The position numbers were made by a program, and so were the translations under genes. 32,861 nt of DNA from Nitratifractor sp. (GTDB lineage: Bacteria; Campylobacterota; Campylobacteria; Campylobacterales; Sulfurovaceae): contig WFMQ01000075.1 of the NCBI GenBank assembly GCA_015488995.1, positions 1-32,861 on the forward strand, in the 5' to 3' direction. Below are positions 25,640-32,861 of this stretch, in pieces. Below the pieces are notes generated by a model, which was given only the letters and a program-made list of their open reading frames with translations, did no database searches and was not told where the DNA came from. How positions within the stretch are numbered: the stretch's first letter is position 1; each line of letters begins with the position of its first letter.

Positions 25640-26369
25640 AAAACTGACCGACAAAGCCGAGAAACAAGACAAAATCGTCAGCATGTTTGACGACATCGCC
25701 TCGACCTATGATACTGCCAACCGAGTATTGAGCATGGGGATCGATATCCAGTGGCGCAAAAAAGGGTGTGACAAGGCGTTTGAGATCTTGAAGACGGATC
25801 ACCTCGCACAAGTCACCGACGTCGCTACTGGTACGGGAGATCTGCTGATCTACTGGCAGGAACAGGCCCGCAAAAAGGGGGTCGAGATCGACAAATACGT
25901 CGGCATCGATCCCTCGACTGGGATGCTCGATGTGGCACGCACAAAAGTTGATTTCGCTGAATTCATCGTCGGCAAAGCCCAGAAACTCCCCATCGAGGAT
26001 GCGTGTACCGATGTGATCTCCATCAGCTACGGTATCCGCAACGTCGTCGATCGCGTCGAAGCCCTCCAGGAGTTTCACCGCGCCCTCAAGCCCGGCGGCA
26101 TCGTCATGATCCTCGAATTTACCAAGCAAGATCGCAGCGGCATGGTCGATAAAGTGGTCGATTTCGGGATGAAAAAGATCCTCCCCCGCATCGGCGGACT
26201 GATCTCCAAAAACTACGAAGCGTACCAATACCTCCCCGACTCCATCGAAGAGTTTCTCACCACAGAGATGCTCAGCCGTGAGCTCGAAGAGGCTGGATTT
26301 GCAATGCGGTATACCGAGAGTTTTTCGATGGGGATCAGTACGCTTTTGGTAGCTCAAAAGCGTCAATGA
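25629..26369 (+). CDS. ubiE: Demethylmenaquinone/ubiquinone methyltransferase
   Basis: KIVSMFDDIASTYDTANRVLSMGIDIQWRK; DVATGTGDLLI; SISYGIRNVVDRVEALQEFHRALKPGG; overlaps end of ribD; TTG start. Confidence 0.94.
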   Translation: MGIEKLTDKAEKQDKIVSMFDDIASTYDTANRVLSMGIDIQWRKKGCDKAFEILKTDHLAQVTDVATGTGDLLIYWQEQARKKGVEIDKYVGIDPSTGMLDVARTKVDFAEFIVGKAQKLPIEDACTDVISISYGIRNVVDRVEALQEFHRALKPGGIVMILEFTKQDRSGMVDKVVDFGMKKILPRIGGLISKNYEAYQYLPDSIEEFLTTEMLSRELEEAGFAMRYTESFSMGISTLLVAQKRQ

Positions 26370-26387
26370 GGAGTGAGGAGTGAGGAG
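26367..26387. repeat. Heptanucleotide tandem repeat (TGAGGAG)x3, first TGA is the ubiE stop
   Basis: tgaggagtgaggagtgaggag read directly. Confidence 0.9.
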
Positions 26388-26399
26388 TAAACCGAAACG

Positions 26400-26427
26400 A
26401 TTCACTATTCACTATTCACTATTCACT
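26400..26427. repeat. Heptanucleotide tandem repeat (ATTCACT)x4
   Basis: attcactattcactattcactattcact read directly, upstream of xseA. Confidence 0.92.
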
Positions 26428-27774: not shown

Positions 27775-28719
<945 letters not shown>

Positions 28720-28760
28720 CGTGAATGAGAAATGTCGGTTTGCGTTGCTGTGCAATGCTT

Positions 28761-28914
28761 TGATCGGACATACAACTCCAAATGGCGGTTGTCCCGATCA
28801 GAAGCAGGGACTTCAGTCCCGTTGTGCGGGGTTGAAACCCTGCCTCCAAATCCGATAAATTCTCACCGATCCGTAGAGGTTTATCGGTGTAGGTCGGGAT
28901 GCCCTCACCCCGAC
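28761..28914. repeat. Cluster of consecutive inverted repeats between moxR and DUF58 gene
   Basis: Hairpins tgatcggacatacaac/gttgtcccgatca (28761-28800); REP-like copy B (28801-28848); ccgataaa/tttatcgg (28852-28887); gtcggg/cccgac (28893-28914). Confidence 0.75.
28801..28848. repeat. REP-like imperfect palindrome, copy B (opposite orientation to copy A)
   Basis: Reverse complement tggaggcagggtttcaaccccgcacaacgggactgaagtccctgcttc aligns gaplessly over 48 nt with copy A (about 39 identities by eye). Confidence 0.8.
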
Positions 28915-28924
28915 ACAATGTCAA

Positions 28925-28990
28925 ATGAATGAGGTTCTGAACATGATCAAAGACTATAGAAAAGACGTGGAGTCAAAGGGACGGCGATGA
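28925..28990 (+). CDS. 21-aa micro-ORF overlapping the DUF58 start codon (ATGA)
   Basis: MNEVLNMIKDYRKDVESKGRR* ends cgATGA where ATG is the start of the DUF58 gene. Confidence 0.25.
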   Translation: MNEVLNMIKDYRKDVESKGRR

Positions 28991-29847
28991 GTACCACAAC
29001 CACCAATCTACCCACTAACAAAAAGATCAAGGCCAAAAAGATCCTCCTCAAGACCAAAAAACAGGTCTTTGGGGATATGCTCGGCAACAATGCCTCCCTC
29101 TTTCACGGTGAAGGATTTGAATTTGCCGAATTGCGGGAGTACATCTACGGTGATGATATCCGCAAGATCGACTGGAAGACCACCGCCAAGCTGGGAAAAC
29201 CGTTTGTCAAAGTCTACCGCGAAGAGCGCGAACTCAATGTCGCCGTCTCGACGATGCTTGGAGGATCGACCTATTTTGGCACGTGCTGTCAAAAGAGCGA
29301 ATACATCGCCCAGCTTGTCTCCATGTTGGGGTTTTCTGCGGTCAAAAACTTTGATCCCTTTTCGCACCTCATCTATGCCGACACCCTCTATCACCACAGC
29401 AAACCTTCCAAAAAAATGTACGCCGTCACCCAGGCGGTGGAGCGGACACTGGCCTTCCAACCTTTGGGCTTGCACAGCGATTTCCAGGGATGGACGGATA
29501 CCACCTTCCACCGCTTCCGCAAAAAGTCGCTCTTGTTTCTGATCTCCGACTTTGTGGGGGAGGTGGATCTGCGACTGCTGTCCAAAAAACACGACGTCTT
29601 TGCCATCATCATCCGGGACCGCTTCGAAGAAGAGCCCCAAGATTTGGGCTACCTCCGTCTCGTCGATACCGAAGGGGACGGCAGCTACGAAGGGGAGATC
29701 GGACACAGCACGCTGACGCACTACCGTGCCGCCCTCAAAGCCAACGATCACGCCCTCTACCAACAGTTCCGCCAAAACGGCATCCGGTATGTCAAACTCT
29801 TCACCGACGAAGACCCGGCGGTTCATCTCCTCAAAAGGATGCGATGA
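28987..29847 (+). CDS. DUF58 domain protein
   Basis: GEGFEFAELREYIYGDDIRKIDWKTTAKLGKPFVKVYREERELNV is the DUF58 signature; follows MoxR. Confidence 0.92.
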   Translation: MSTTTTNLPTNKKIKAKKILLKTKKQVFGDMLGNNASLFHGEGFEFAELREYIYGDDIRKIDWKTTAKLGKPFVKVYREERELNVAVSTMLGGSTYFGTCCQKSEYIAQLVSMLGFSAVKNFDPFSHLIYADTLYHHSKPSKKMYAVTQAVERTLAFQPLGLHSDFQGWTDTTFHRFRKKSLLFLISDFVGEVDLRLLSKKHDVFAIIIRDRFEEEPQDLGYLRLVDTEGDGSYEGEIGHSTLTHYRAALKANDHALYQQFRQNGIRYVKLFTDEDPAVHLLKRMR

Positions 29848-30260
29848 TGGCTGCACACCTCACACCGGCTCAACACCTGCGGGACATCAAACCCCCCGTA
29901 GAGATCCACGACATCAGCGTCTACCTCTACTGGGGGCTGATCATTCTCAGCGTAGCGGTGCTTGCCGTCGCGCTGTTTTACCTCGTCAAGCTCCTCCTCG
30001 GTCTGCGCCGTACCAACTGGCGCAAAGCTTGGCTGGAGGCGCTCAAACAGATCGACTGGAACGACCCGAAACACGGTGCCTACGAAGCGACCCGCCTGGG
30101 GCGTCTGCTTCTCGGAGAGGAGCACCGCCCCCGTGAACTCTACCGGCAGATGGTGGAGGCACTCAAACCGTACAAATACCGAAAAGAGGTCTCTGGACTT
30201 GCCCCGGATGCCCGGGCGCAGTTCGACCTCTTCCTAAAGGCATGCGATGAGTCACTTTAG
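29844..30260 (+). CDS. Small membrane protein of MoxR/Bat operon (DUF4381-like)
   Basis: One TM helix after HLRDIKPPVEI...; ATGA overlap with DUF58 gene, overlap with VWA gene. Track ORF start 29490 is an in-frame extension over the DUF58 gene. Confidence 0.7.
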   Translation: MMAAHLTPAQHLRDIKPPVEIHDISVYLYWGLIILSVAVLAVALFYLVKLLLGLRRTNWRKAWLEALKQIDWNDPKHGAYEATRLGRLLLGEEHRPRELYRQMVEALKPYKYRKEVSGLAPDARAQFDLFLKACDESL

Positions 30261-31167
30261 CCTCCAATACCCCTATGCATTGGCACTGATCCTCCTGTTT
30301 TATGTCTGCGCACGCTGGTGCCCGGCACGGACACAGGCGATCTATTTCCCTCACATTCATGCGTTGCTGAGTGGGGGTGGCCGTCGCAGCCGACTGCTCG
30401 ATCTGCTCAAATGGTTTGGGATCGTCTCCCTGCTGGTTGCCCTCGCCTCACCCGTCATCACCAAAGAGTACAAAGATACCAAAAAGCGGGGACGTGACAT
30501 CATGCTTGTCATCGACTCCAGCGGTTCGATGCGCCAATACGGTTTTGACCCCAACGCCCCGTTCAAAAGCAAATTTGATGTCGTCAAAGAGGTGCTTGCT
30601 GACTTTGTCAAACAGCGCAAAAATGATCGGCTGGGGCTCATCAACTTCGCCGATGCGGCGTTTGTCGCGTCACCACTGACCTTCGAGCACGACTTCATGA
30701 AGAGCATCATCGCCATGCAGCGTCTCGGGCTGGCAGGTCAAAAAACAGCCATCAACGATGCCCTCGTGCAGACCTATAGCATCCTCAACAAAAGCGATGC
30801 CAAGACCAAAATCGCCATCCTCCTCACCGATGGAGAAGACACCGCCAGCCGTATTGGTGCGGATGCGACCCTCAAACTGGTACGCGAAACACCGGTCCGG
30901 CTCTACACCATCGGTATCGGTACCGTCAACGACTTCAATGCCCCCTACCTCACGGCATTGGCTCGCGCGGGCAAAGGGAAATTTTTTGCTGCTTCGGATC
31001 GGACAGCTCTCCAAAAGATCTATGCACAAATCGATGCCATGGAGACCAGTAAGATCAAGCACAAAAAAATCGTCCAATACGAGTACTACTACCTCTACCC
31101 CTTGCTCGCCGCGCTGCTGAGCCTGTTGGGCTTTATCTATCTTCGCACCACCAAAGGAGTCGAATGA
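30247..31167 (+). CDS. VWA-domain membrane protein (BatA-like)
   Basis: MIDAS DSSGSM, N- and C-terminal TM helices (KWFGIVSLLVALASPVI; YYYLYPLLAALLSLLGFIYL). Confidence 0.92.
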   Translation: MSHFSLQYPYALALILLFYVCARWCPARTQAIYFPHIHALLSGGGRRSRLLDLLKWFGIVSLLVALASPVITKEYKDTKKRGRDIMLVIDSSGSMRQYGFDPNAPFKSKFDVVKEVLADFVKQRKNDRLGLINFADAAFVASPLTFEHDFMKSIIAMQRLGLAGQKTAINDALVQTYSILNKSDAKTKIAILLTDGEDTASRIGADATLKLVRETPVRLYTIGIGTVNDFNAPYLTALARAGKGKFFAASDRTALQKIYAQIDAMETSKIKHKKIVQYEYYYLYPLLAALLSLLGFIYLRTTKGVE

Positions 31168-32861
31168 TGTCATGGGTTCATCCATATCTTCTGCTGTTCT
31201 TGCTTGTGCCGTTTGTGATCTTTGCGGGTCTCATCCTGACCAATCGGGAAGGGGTAACGCGGGTCTTTGATGCGGCCGTGCTCAAGCGTCTCCGTGTCGA
31301 GGGTGATGTCTTGCCCGTGCGGGTACGCAACACCGTCCTGCTCCTCTCCATCCTCCTGATGATCTTTGCCCTTGGTCGGCCGGTGATCGAGCACGGCAAG
31401 CATACCGTCTCGCTCAAGGGGCTCGATGCCATGGTGGCACTCGACATCTCCGGCTCGATGCGCTCACAGGACACATACCCCAACCGCCTTGTGTTTGCCA
31501 AGCGCAAAATCGATCAACTGCTTGATGCAATGCCTGGCGATGAGATCTCTCTCGCGGCTTTTGCCCACGCGGCCTTCATGCTCGCCCCGTTTACGACCGA
31601 CAAGGCTGCCCTCAAGCAGATCCTCGATGGCGTCGACGAGAGCTACATCAACCTCGCTTCAACCAACTTCGCCGCACTCGGAGATCTGGCCACCACCTTC
31701 CTCAAAAAGAAAAAACCCAAAATCCTCATTGTCGTCACCGACGGCGGGGATCCCAAAGCCCTCGCTTCGTTTGGATCGATCCTCAAAGATGCCAACATTA
31801 CCCTCTACGGTGTCCTCGTCGGCACCAAGAAAGGTGCCCCCGTCCTCGACAAAAACCATCGCCCCATCACCTCCTCGAAAGGTACCATCGCCATCACCCA
31901 ACGCAACGATACGCTCAAAGAGATCGCCCATAAAACCGGTGGGGAAGCCATCATCGCCAGCAACGGCAAACGTGATATGCAGCACCTTGCAGAGCGGATT
32001 CATGCGAAATACTCTACCCAAAACCAAGGCTCCATCACCGTCAAAGAGCGCACCGAACTGTTTGTCTATCTCCTCGCCGCCGCAACGCTCCTGCTGCTCT
32101 TGGGGCTGATGTCATTGCCCAAAAAATCTATCCACATAAGTTTGCTCTTTTCATTTTTCATTTTTCATGTTTCATTTTTCACTCCCGCTTATGGCGGCAT
32201 CACCGACTTCAAGACCATCAAAACAGCCAAAGAGGCCTACGCATCCAAAGACTACAACCGCACGATCCAAGCACTCACCCAGCTCAACACACCCTCTCCT
32301 GAGCGCAATTATGATCTCGGAGATGCGTACTACAAAGCTGGGCGACTCGATGCAGCACTCCGTACCTGGAAACGGGCAAAAGGTGGGGATGTTGACGAAG
32401 AGAAACGGCTCCACAACATTGGCAATATTTATTTCAAAAAGAAACAATACGACCACGCCATCACTGCCTATGAAGCGGCTCTCAAAATCCACGATGACCC
32501 CGATACCCGTTTCAACCTCGATCTTGCCAAGAAGATGAAGAGGAAACAGGAACAGAAGAAAAAGAAGAAGAAAAAACAGCAAAAGAAGCAACAGAAGAAA
32601 AACAATAAGGATAAAAAGAAAAACAACAAGCAGAAAAACAATCAGGATAAAAAGAAAAAGAAATCGGGTCAAAATCAGAAGAAAAAGCCCAAAAACAAAC
32701 CGGGGAAACAGCCAAAAAAGAAACCACAGGATAAACCCGGCGACCAGAAGAAAAGCACCAAAAACAAACCGGGGCAACACGGCAAACAGAAAAAACCCGA
32801 CCCGAAAAAGGGCGACCAAAAGTCAAAGGCATCTTCCAAGCCCGACACGAAGGGGCAAAAG
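31164..32861 (+). CDS. VWA + TPR fusion protein (BatB-BatC-like), 3' end beyond window
   Basis: Own translation of frame 31164: MMSWVHPYLLLFLLVPFVIFAGL...LDAMVALDISGSMRSQDTYPNRLVFAKRKIDQLL...TELFVYLLAAATLLLLLGLMSLPKKSIHISLLFSFFIFHVSFFTPAYGGITDFKTIKTAKEAYASKDYNRTIQALTQLN...LHNIGNIYFKKKQYDHAITAYEAALKIHDDPDTRFNLDLAKK then Lys-rich tail; no stop in window. Confidence 0.88.
   Translation, partial: MMSWVHPYLLLFLLVPFVIFAGLILTNREGVTRVFDAAVLKRLRVEGDVLPVRVRNTVLLLSILLMIFALGRPVIEHGKHTVSLKGLDAMVALDISGSMRSQDTYPNRLVFAKRKIDQLLDAMPGDEISLAAFAHAAFMLAPFTTDKAALKQILDGVDESYINLASTNFAALGDLATTFLKKKKPKILIVVTDGGDPKALASFGSILKDANITLYGVLVGTKKGAPVLDKNHRPITSSKGTIAITQRNDTLKEIAHKTGGEAIIASNGKRDMQHLAERIHAKYSTQNQGSITVKERTELFVYLLAAATLLLLLGLMSLPKKSIHISLLFSFFIFHVSFFTPAYGGITDFKTIKTAKEAYASKDYNRTIQALTQLNTPSPERNYDLGDAYYKAGRLDAALRTWKRAKGGDVDEEKRLHNIGNIYFKKKQYDHAITAYEAALKIHDDPDTRFNLDLAKKMKRKQEQKKKKKKKQQKKQQKKNNKDKKKNNKQKNNQDKKKKKSGQNQKKKPKNKPGKQPKKKPQDKPGDQKKSTKNKPGQHGKQKKPDPKKGDQKSKASSKPDTKGQK
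32147..32181. repeat. Degenerate heptanucleotide array (TTTTTCA)x5 inside coding sequence
   Basis: cttttca tttttca tttttca tgtttca tttttca read directly. Confidence 0.85.

Follow-up and report, generated by a model that had tools for sequence, protein, structure and literature searches.

Does the heptanucleotide array at the junction of batB and batC in a Nitratifractor sp. genome switch the fused gene on and off, did it create the fusion, or does it have another history? The window that we analysed, 32,861 nt in length, is contig C75 of a draft genome (1.43 Mb, 74.5% complete; hereafter G000) that was surveyed by sampled stretches. Among named genomes, Nitratifractor sp. S017_3 and two MAGs labelled Campylobacteraceae are closest to it, which suggests that it belongs to the family Sulfurovaceae. 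Tandem Repeats Finder identified an array of TTTTCAT with a period of 7, 4.9 copies and 92% match, which bears out the heptamer array of a preliminary description of the window, although that had placed its start one base too early, at 32147. The units read, in order, TTTTCAT three times, GTTTCAT and TTTTCA(C), and the longest perfect stretch is 21 nt. No match to the array was found in 100 dinucleotide shuffles of the window, even when three mismatches were allowed. The window contained three period-7 runs against 0.0 expected from order-2 Markov simulations, and the same analysis found no runs with periods of 5, 6, 8 or 9.

The array is coding and lies inside one open frame that extends to the contig end (566 aa), where it specifies residues 329–339 (FSFFIFHVSFF), a hydrophobic segment as had been proposed. 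Pfam placed a VWA domain at aa 90–194 and TPR repeats at about aa 359–443, with the array between them. Similarity to BatB stops at about aa 321, and aa 345 (nt 32196) is the first residue of mature BatC, which makes it fair to locate the array at the exact BatB/BatC junction. The genes for VWA and TPR proteins adjoin those for a MoxR-type ATPase, a DUF58 protein and a BatA-like protein, the composition of a bat operon (Table 1). The BatC tail (32529–32861) is long, rich in Lys, Gln and Asn, and repetitive, and runs off the contig end; the free BatC of another genome, G033, has such a tail as well. An assembly artefact was ruled out as the source of the fusion, which is also present in two other MAGs (G001 and G002) and whose downstream frame, the TPR part 3′ of the junction, is under purifying selection as judged by dN/dS against the sister species (0.05-0.065 for the TPR part). 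In Leptospira biflexa, batB and batC are reportedly fused too, and further bacteria carry fusions of other bat genes (PMC3557215). The L. biflexa operon resembles the present one in being a bat (Bacteroides aerotolerance) cluster with VWA and TPR proteins and a batB–batC fusion (PMC3557215), whereas here the fusion is found in just three genomes of the family and carries a heptad-coded internal signal segment.

Table 1 Features of the window discussed in the text.
Feature	Coordinates	Strand	Remarks
Second heptad site, between ubiE and xseA	26367..26427	+	TGAGGAG x3 and roughly inverted ATTCACT x4
MoxR-type AAA+ ATPase (27775-28719) and DUF58 protein (28987-29847)	27775..29847	+	bat operon
BatA-like VWA protein	30247..31167	+	5′ of the fusion, shared operon
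BatB part of the fused gene	31164..32126	+	three hydrophobic segments and VWA domain (Pfam VWA_2)
Signal-peptide cassette (SIHISLLFSFFIFHVSFFTPAYG), now internal hydrophobic segment	32127..32195	+	alignment with free BatC N-termini of relatives; hydropathy
Heptanucleotide array TTTTCAT x4.9 (TTCATTT units, last TTCACT)	32148..32181	+	read as hydrophobic core of former BatC signal peptide
BatC part of the fused gene	32196..32861	+	mature TPR domain and Lys-rich tail, ends at contig end; dN/dS 0.05-0.07 versus sister species

Most members of the family carry batB and batC as two genes. Across the 15 such genomes checked, the DNA aligned to the array encodes the hydrophobic core of a batC signal peptide with its own ATG. 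The ATG lies at −60 or −63 in most of the 15, and a GGAGG-like ribosome-binding site is present in most. The layout comprises the ATG, an AAA-rich n-region (Lys/Arg), the heptads, A-x-A and a mature start of GLTDF or GITDF, and the arrays were in frame in every case (15/15). BatC of the split relatives thus has the hallmarks of a Sec signal peptide, namely a basic n-region, a core of 8–14 residues and an A-x-A-like motif at the N-terminus; in the window, the same segment is not N-terminal but internal (aa 322–344). Lag-7 identity reached at least 0.5 in the BatC signal peptides of 18 of 46 species, compared with 5.6% for synonymous recodings of those peptides, although these and related counts come from species that are kin and hence not independent. 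Signal peptides at large are not heptad-coded: among the 378 predicted in six genome samples, only 3 passed a stricter cut-off of 0.62, two of them BatC (about 1 in 376 for the remainder). Many Sulfurovaceae BatC signal peptides have no heptads, which indicates that the array is dispensable.

Comparison of one genome per species showed that, between species, the register and unit number of the batC array are the same and the unit sequence differs. Five units are present in the window, in fused G002 and in split G028, a member of another genus. The unit is TTCATTT in these three genomes, CTCATTT in G166, TTGGCTA in G154, TTCACTA in G169, G173 and G159, CTCATTG in G183 and CTCACTG in G122. A final TTCACT at a fixed 3′ position is retained in 10 of 17 arrays from three genera while the inner units vary, and it has the look of an ancestral unit. 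Neighbouring units within one array are 73% identical, against 51% for units at the same position in different species. The alike inner units, retained edge unit and constant length together suggest homogenisation in place under a length constraint, and the arrays have evidently been turned over by slippage or conversion across evolutionary time. Perfect three-unit arrays of CTATTGG in G154 and of CATTTTT in G028 were found solely at batC in the respective genome, which argues against plain copying from elsewhere; the batC unit of G166 is common in its genome, and import is possible in some such cases. Copying from the commonest unit of the genome was therefore rejected as a general rule, being true of G166 and false of G154 and G028. 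Short recombination must have contributed in addition to in-place homogenisation, because the sister genomes G001 and G002 have unrelated cassettes, that of G001 resembling split G003. The junction cassettes accordingly conflict with the BatB tree, those of G001 and G003 forming one pair and those of G000 and G002 another (L024 = G002, L025 = G001, L026 = G003).

A long fused frame (>600 aa) was found only in G000, G001 and G002 among 168 BatC-bearing genomes. The three group together in a supported clade, to which split G003 is sister. Split G028 carries the same five-unit array in a batC with its own ATG, and fused G001 has an array unlike that of the window. At the junctions of the more distant fused genomes G009 and G053, heptads were absent (lag-7 identity 0.21 and 0.39), an observation of the kind that the preliminary description had itself named as refuting its reading. 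Arrays without fusion, fusions without an array and one fused species with a different array indicate that the array neither made nor marks the fusion. Since G028 and G002 have equal copy numbers and the spacer 5′ of the array differs between them by 2 nt, the frames were joined by a change 5′ of the array.

Collectively, these observations favour a reading to which we assign a probability of roughly 0.7, namely that the array is the core of a BatC signal peptide older than the fusion, kept in length and register while its units were homogenised in place, and that the fusion was a separate, later event. A Sec signal peptide core of about 11 residues would have been written as approximately five heptamers. 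As 7 is not divisible by 3, every frame of such an array reads one and the same recurring hydrophobic heptapeptide, and none of them holds a stop on this strand. Its length and register would be held by selection on the reading frame and on the core length of about 11 residues, an attribution of our own, while slippage or gene conversion would leave different units at equal coordinates in different species. In the lineage that the window shares with G002 and G001, the BatB stop, the BatC start and the ribosome-binding site would then have been lost through changes 5′ of the array.

The signal peptide would thereby have become an internal membrane segment, by way of which the TPR domain reaches the periplasm. 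Hydropathy predicted four hydrophobic segments in the fused protein, of which the array segment is the putative fourth helix; the basic loop between the first two segments and the PKK that precedes the array suggest that it leads out of the cytoplasm into the periplasm, where the TPR domain would lie. The cassette ends in A-Y-G before a Gly, a signal-peptidase-like motif that reads A-H-A in G002 and T-Y-A in G001, which suggests that the fused protein is perhaps still cleaved there. Both topology and cleavage are read from hydropathy and motifs.

Heptads are not confined to batC. Period-7 runs numbered 20, against 0–5 for any other period, in 296 kb of partly chosen contigs, and 4 against 2 in an unchosen 103 kb; the same trend was seen in G021, G033 and G039. 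The reversed-pattern control was uninformative because the heptad motif is nearly symmetric. The two arrays between ubiE and xseA in the window likewise point to heptad arrays genome-wide. There, the first TGAGGAG unit contains the ubiE stop, and ATTCACT x4 precedes xseA. The corresponding gap in G033, G028, G008 and G021 holds heptads with other units, and other genera have at this locus a like layout with other units, a REP-like palindrome, or nothing. Downstream of ubiE in L207, L209 and L212 (G025, G016 and G011), TGTAGGGTGTGCA...TGCACACCCTACA palindromes or a related TGTAGGGTGGA form, REP- or MITE-like in appearance, take the place of the heptad pairs. The N-terminus of tilS is heptad-coded in several genera with differing units (CTTCCTA, GGTTACTC and CATTTCT; L221, L222, L237 and L180), and in G002 and G003 a hisH-like gene (MKNEK...) apparently takes its start codon from AAAAATG heptads in the opposite orientation (L188 and L191, at about 1500). 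Arrays near other ORF starts, considered as signal peptides, were mostly intergenic sequence within over-extended ORFs, and strict inverted complementarity between neighbouring arrays held for some pairs only.

By sequence class, the array belongs with the dispersed heptanucleotide repeats (the LSSR class), as period 7 dominates the long tandem repeats in the sampled stretches. Such repeats have been described as TAACTGA in Beggiatoaceae and Cyanobacteria (PMC4679880) and as GGGAATC in Xanthomonas and GGGGA(C/T)T in Nostoc (PMC4692102), and resemble those reported here in being spread genome-wide at gene boundaries, mostly as few units. A further resemblance, to the Xanthomonas heptads, is that arrays at the ends of genes and those at the starts have opposite polarity, and that inverted pairs occur (PMC4692102). 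However, those genomes favour one unit, whereas Sulfurovaceae have many that differ at orthologous sites; in G000, ATTCACT is the commonest but occurs beside many others. The batC array further differs from the described repeats in being a conserved coding part of a signal peptide. A literature search for heptanucleotide repeats and Sulfurovum within a restricted paper collection found nothing.

The dispersed elements raise an alternative. In it, an intergenic pair consists of a purine arm at the upstream stop and a pyrimidine arm ahead of the following start; the batC array would be one such arm that extended into batC, and the fusion would have arisen when the purine arm with the BatB stop was lost. 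In split G003, the BatB stop TAG indeed lies in GGTAGAR heptads ahead of batC and CTACCCG heptads occupy the batC signal peptide, making arm loss a possible fusion route; the ubiE–xseA gap repeats the layout with different units in G000, G033 and G028, and the polarity matches that described for Xanthomonas and Nostoc. Yet the purine arm is absent from other split relatives with batC arrays, neighbouring arrays are just loosely complementary overall, and the scheme depends on the arrangement of G003 being ancestral. We therefore regard this alternative as unlikely.

A phase-variation switch, as the preliminary description had suggested, would have one heptamer more or less toggle between BatB–BatC and a truncated BatB. 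The unit length is not a multiple of 3 within a coding frame, and the frame arithmetic on which the suggestion rested is correct: one additional unit brings a stop after 381 aa and the loss of one a stop after 455 aa, either of which removes the TPR part, while three additional units keep the frame. Moreover, homogenised units imply slippage or conversion in the past. Nevertheless, comparison between species showed equal copy number in G000, G002 and G028, a constant register and no OFF state among the 15 split copies checked, and the window array is short and broken by a G. To our knowledge, Bat genes are not classical surface antigens, which also counts against a switch. Mechanistically, the closest known system is the (CTCTT)n repeat of the Neisseria opa leader peptide, which occupies a like position as a non-triplet unit coding part of a signal peptide, and where one unit more or less shifts the frame; its copy number varies and expression switches at about 1e-3 per cell per generation (PMC3960869, PMC5354566), whereas the batC arrays of different species agree in copy number and register and differ in unit sequence. 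On balance, a switch of this kind appears very improbable.

That heptamer slippage produced the fusion is hardly credible, even though array and fusion occur together in the window and BatB and BatC of G028 are two frames apart such that 7 added nucleotides would align them, because the BatB stop of G028 lies 5′ of the array, split G028 equals fused G002 in copy number, and the fused relatives G009, G053 and G001 have no array or a different one.

A signal-peptide minisatellite of locked length and fluid sequence, in a family of sulfur-oxidising bacteria, is in our view a better finding than either a switch or an origin for the fusion. If such an array formed the BatC signal peptide throughout Sulfurovaceae diversification and its homogenisation reflects continuing slippage, BatC export may be a slow contingency locus family-wide, an extension that we consider rather improbable. 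The array also cautions against reading phase variation from nothing more than a non-triplet repeat in a signal peptide. As batC illustrates, tandem heptamers can make up the core of a signal peptide, and one set of heptamers can be rewritten as another. The locus offers a natural record of concerted evolution in coding sequence whose length is strictly constrained, and more than 10 species can be compared at this one site. Why period 7 prevails among the minisatellites of bacteria is a long-standing question for which the batC array is a tractable system.
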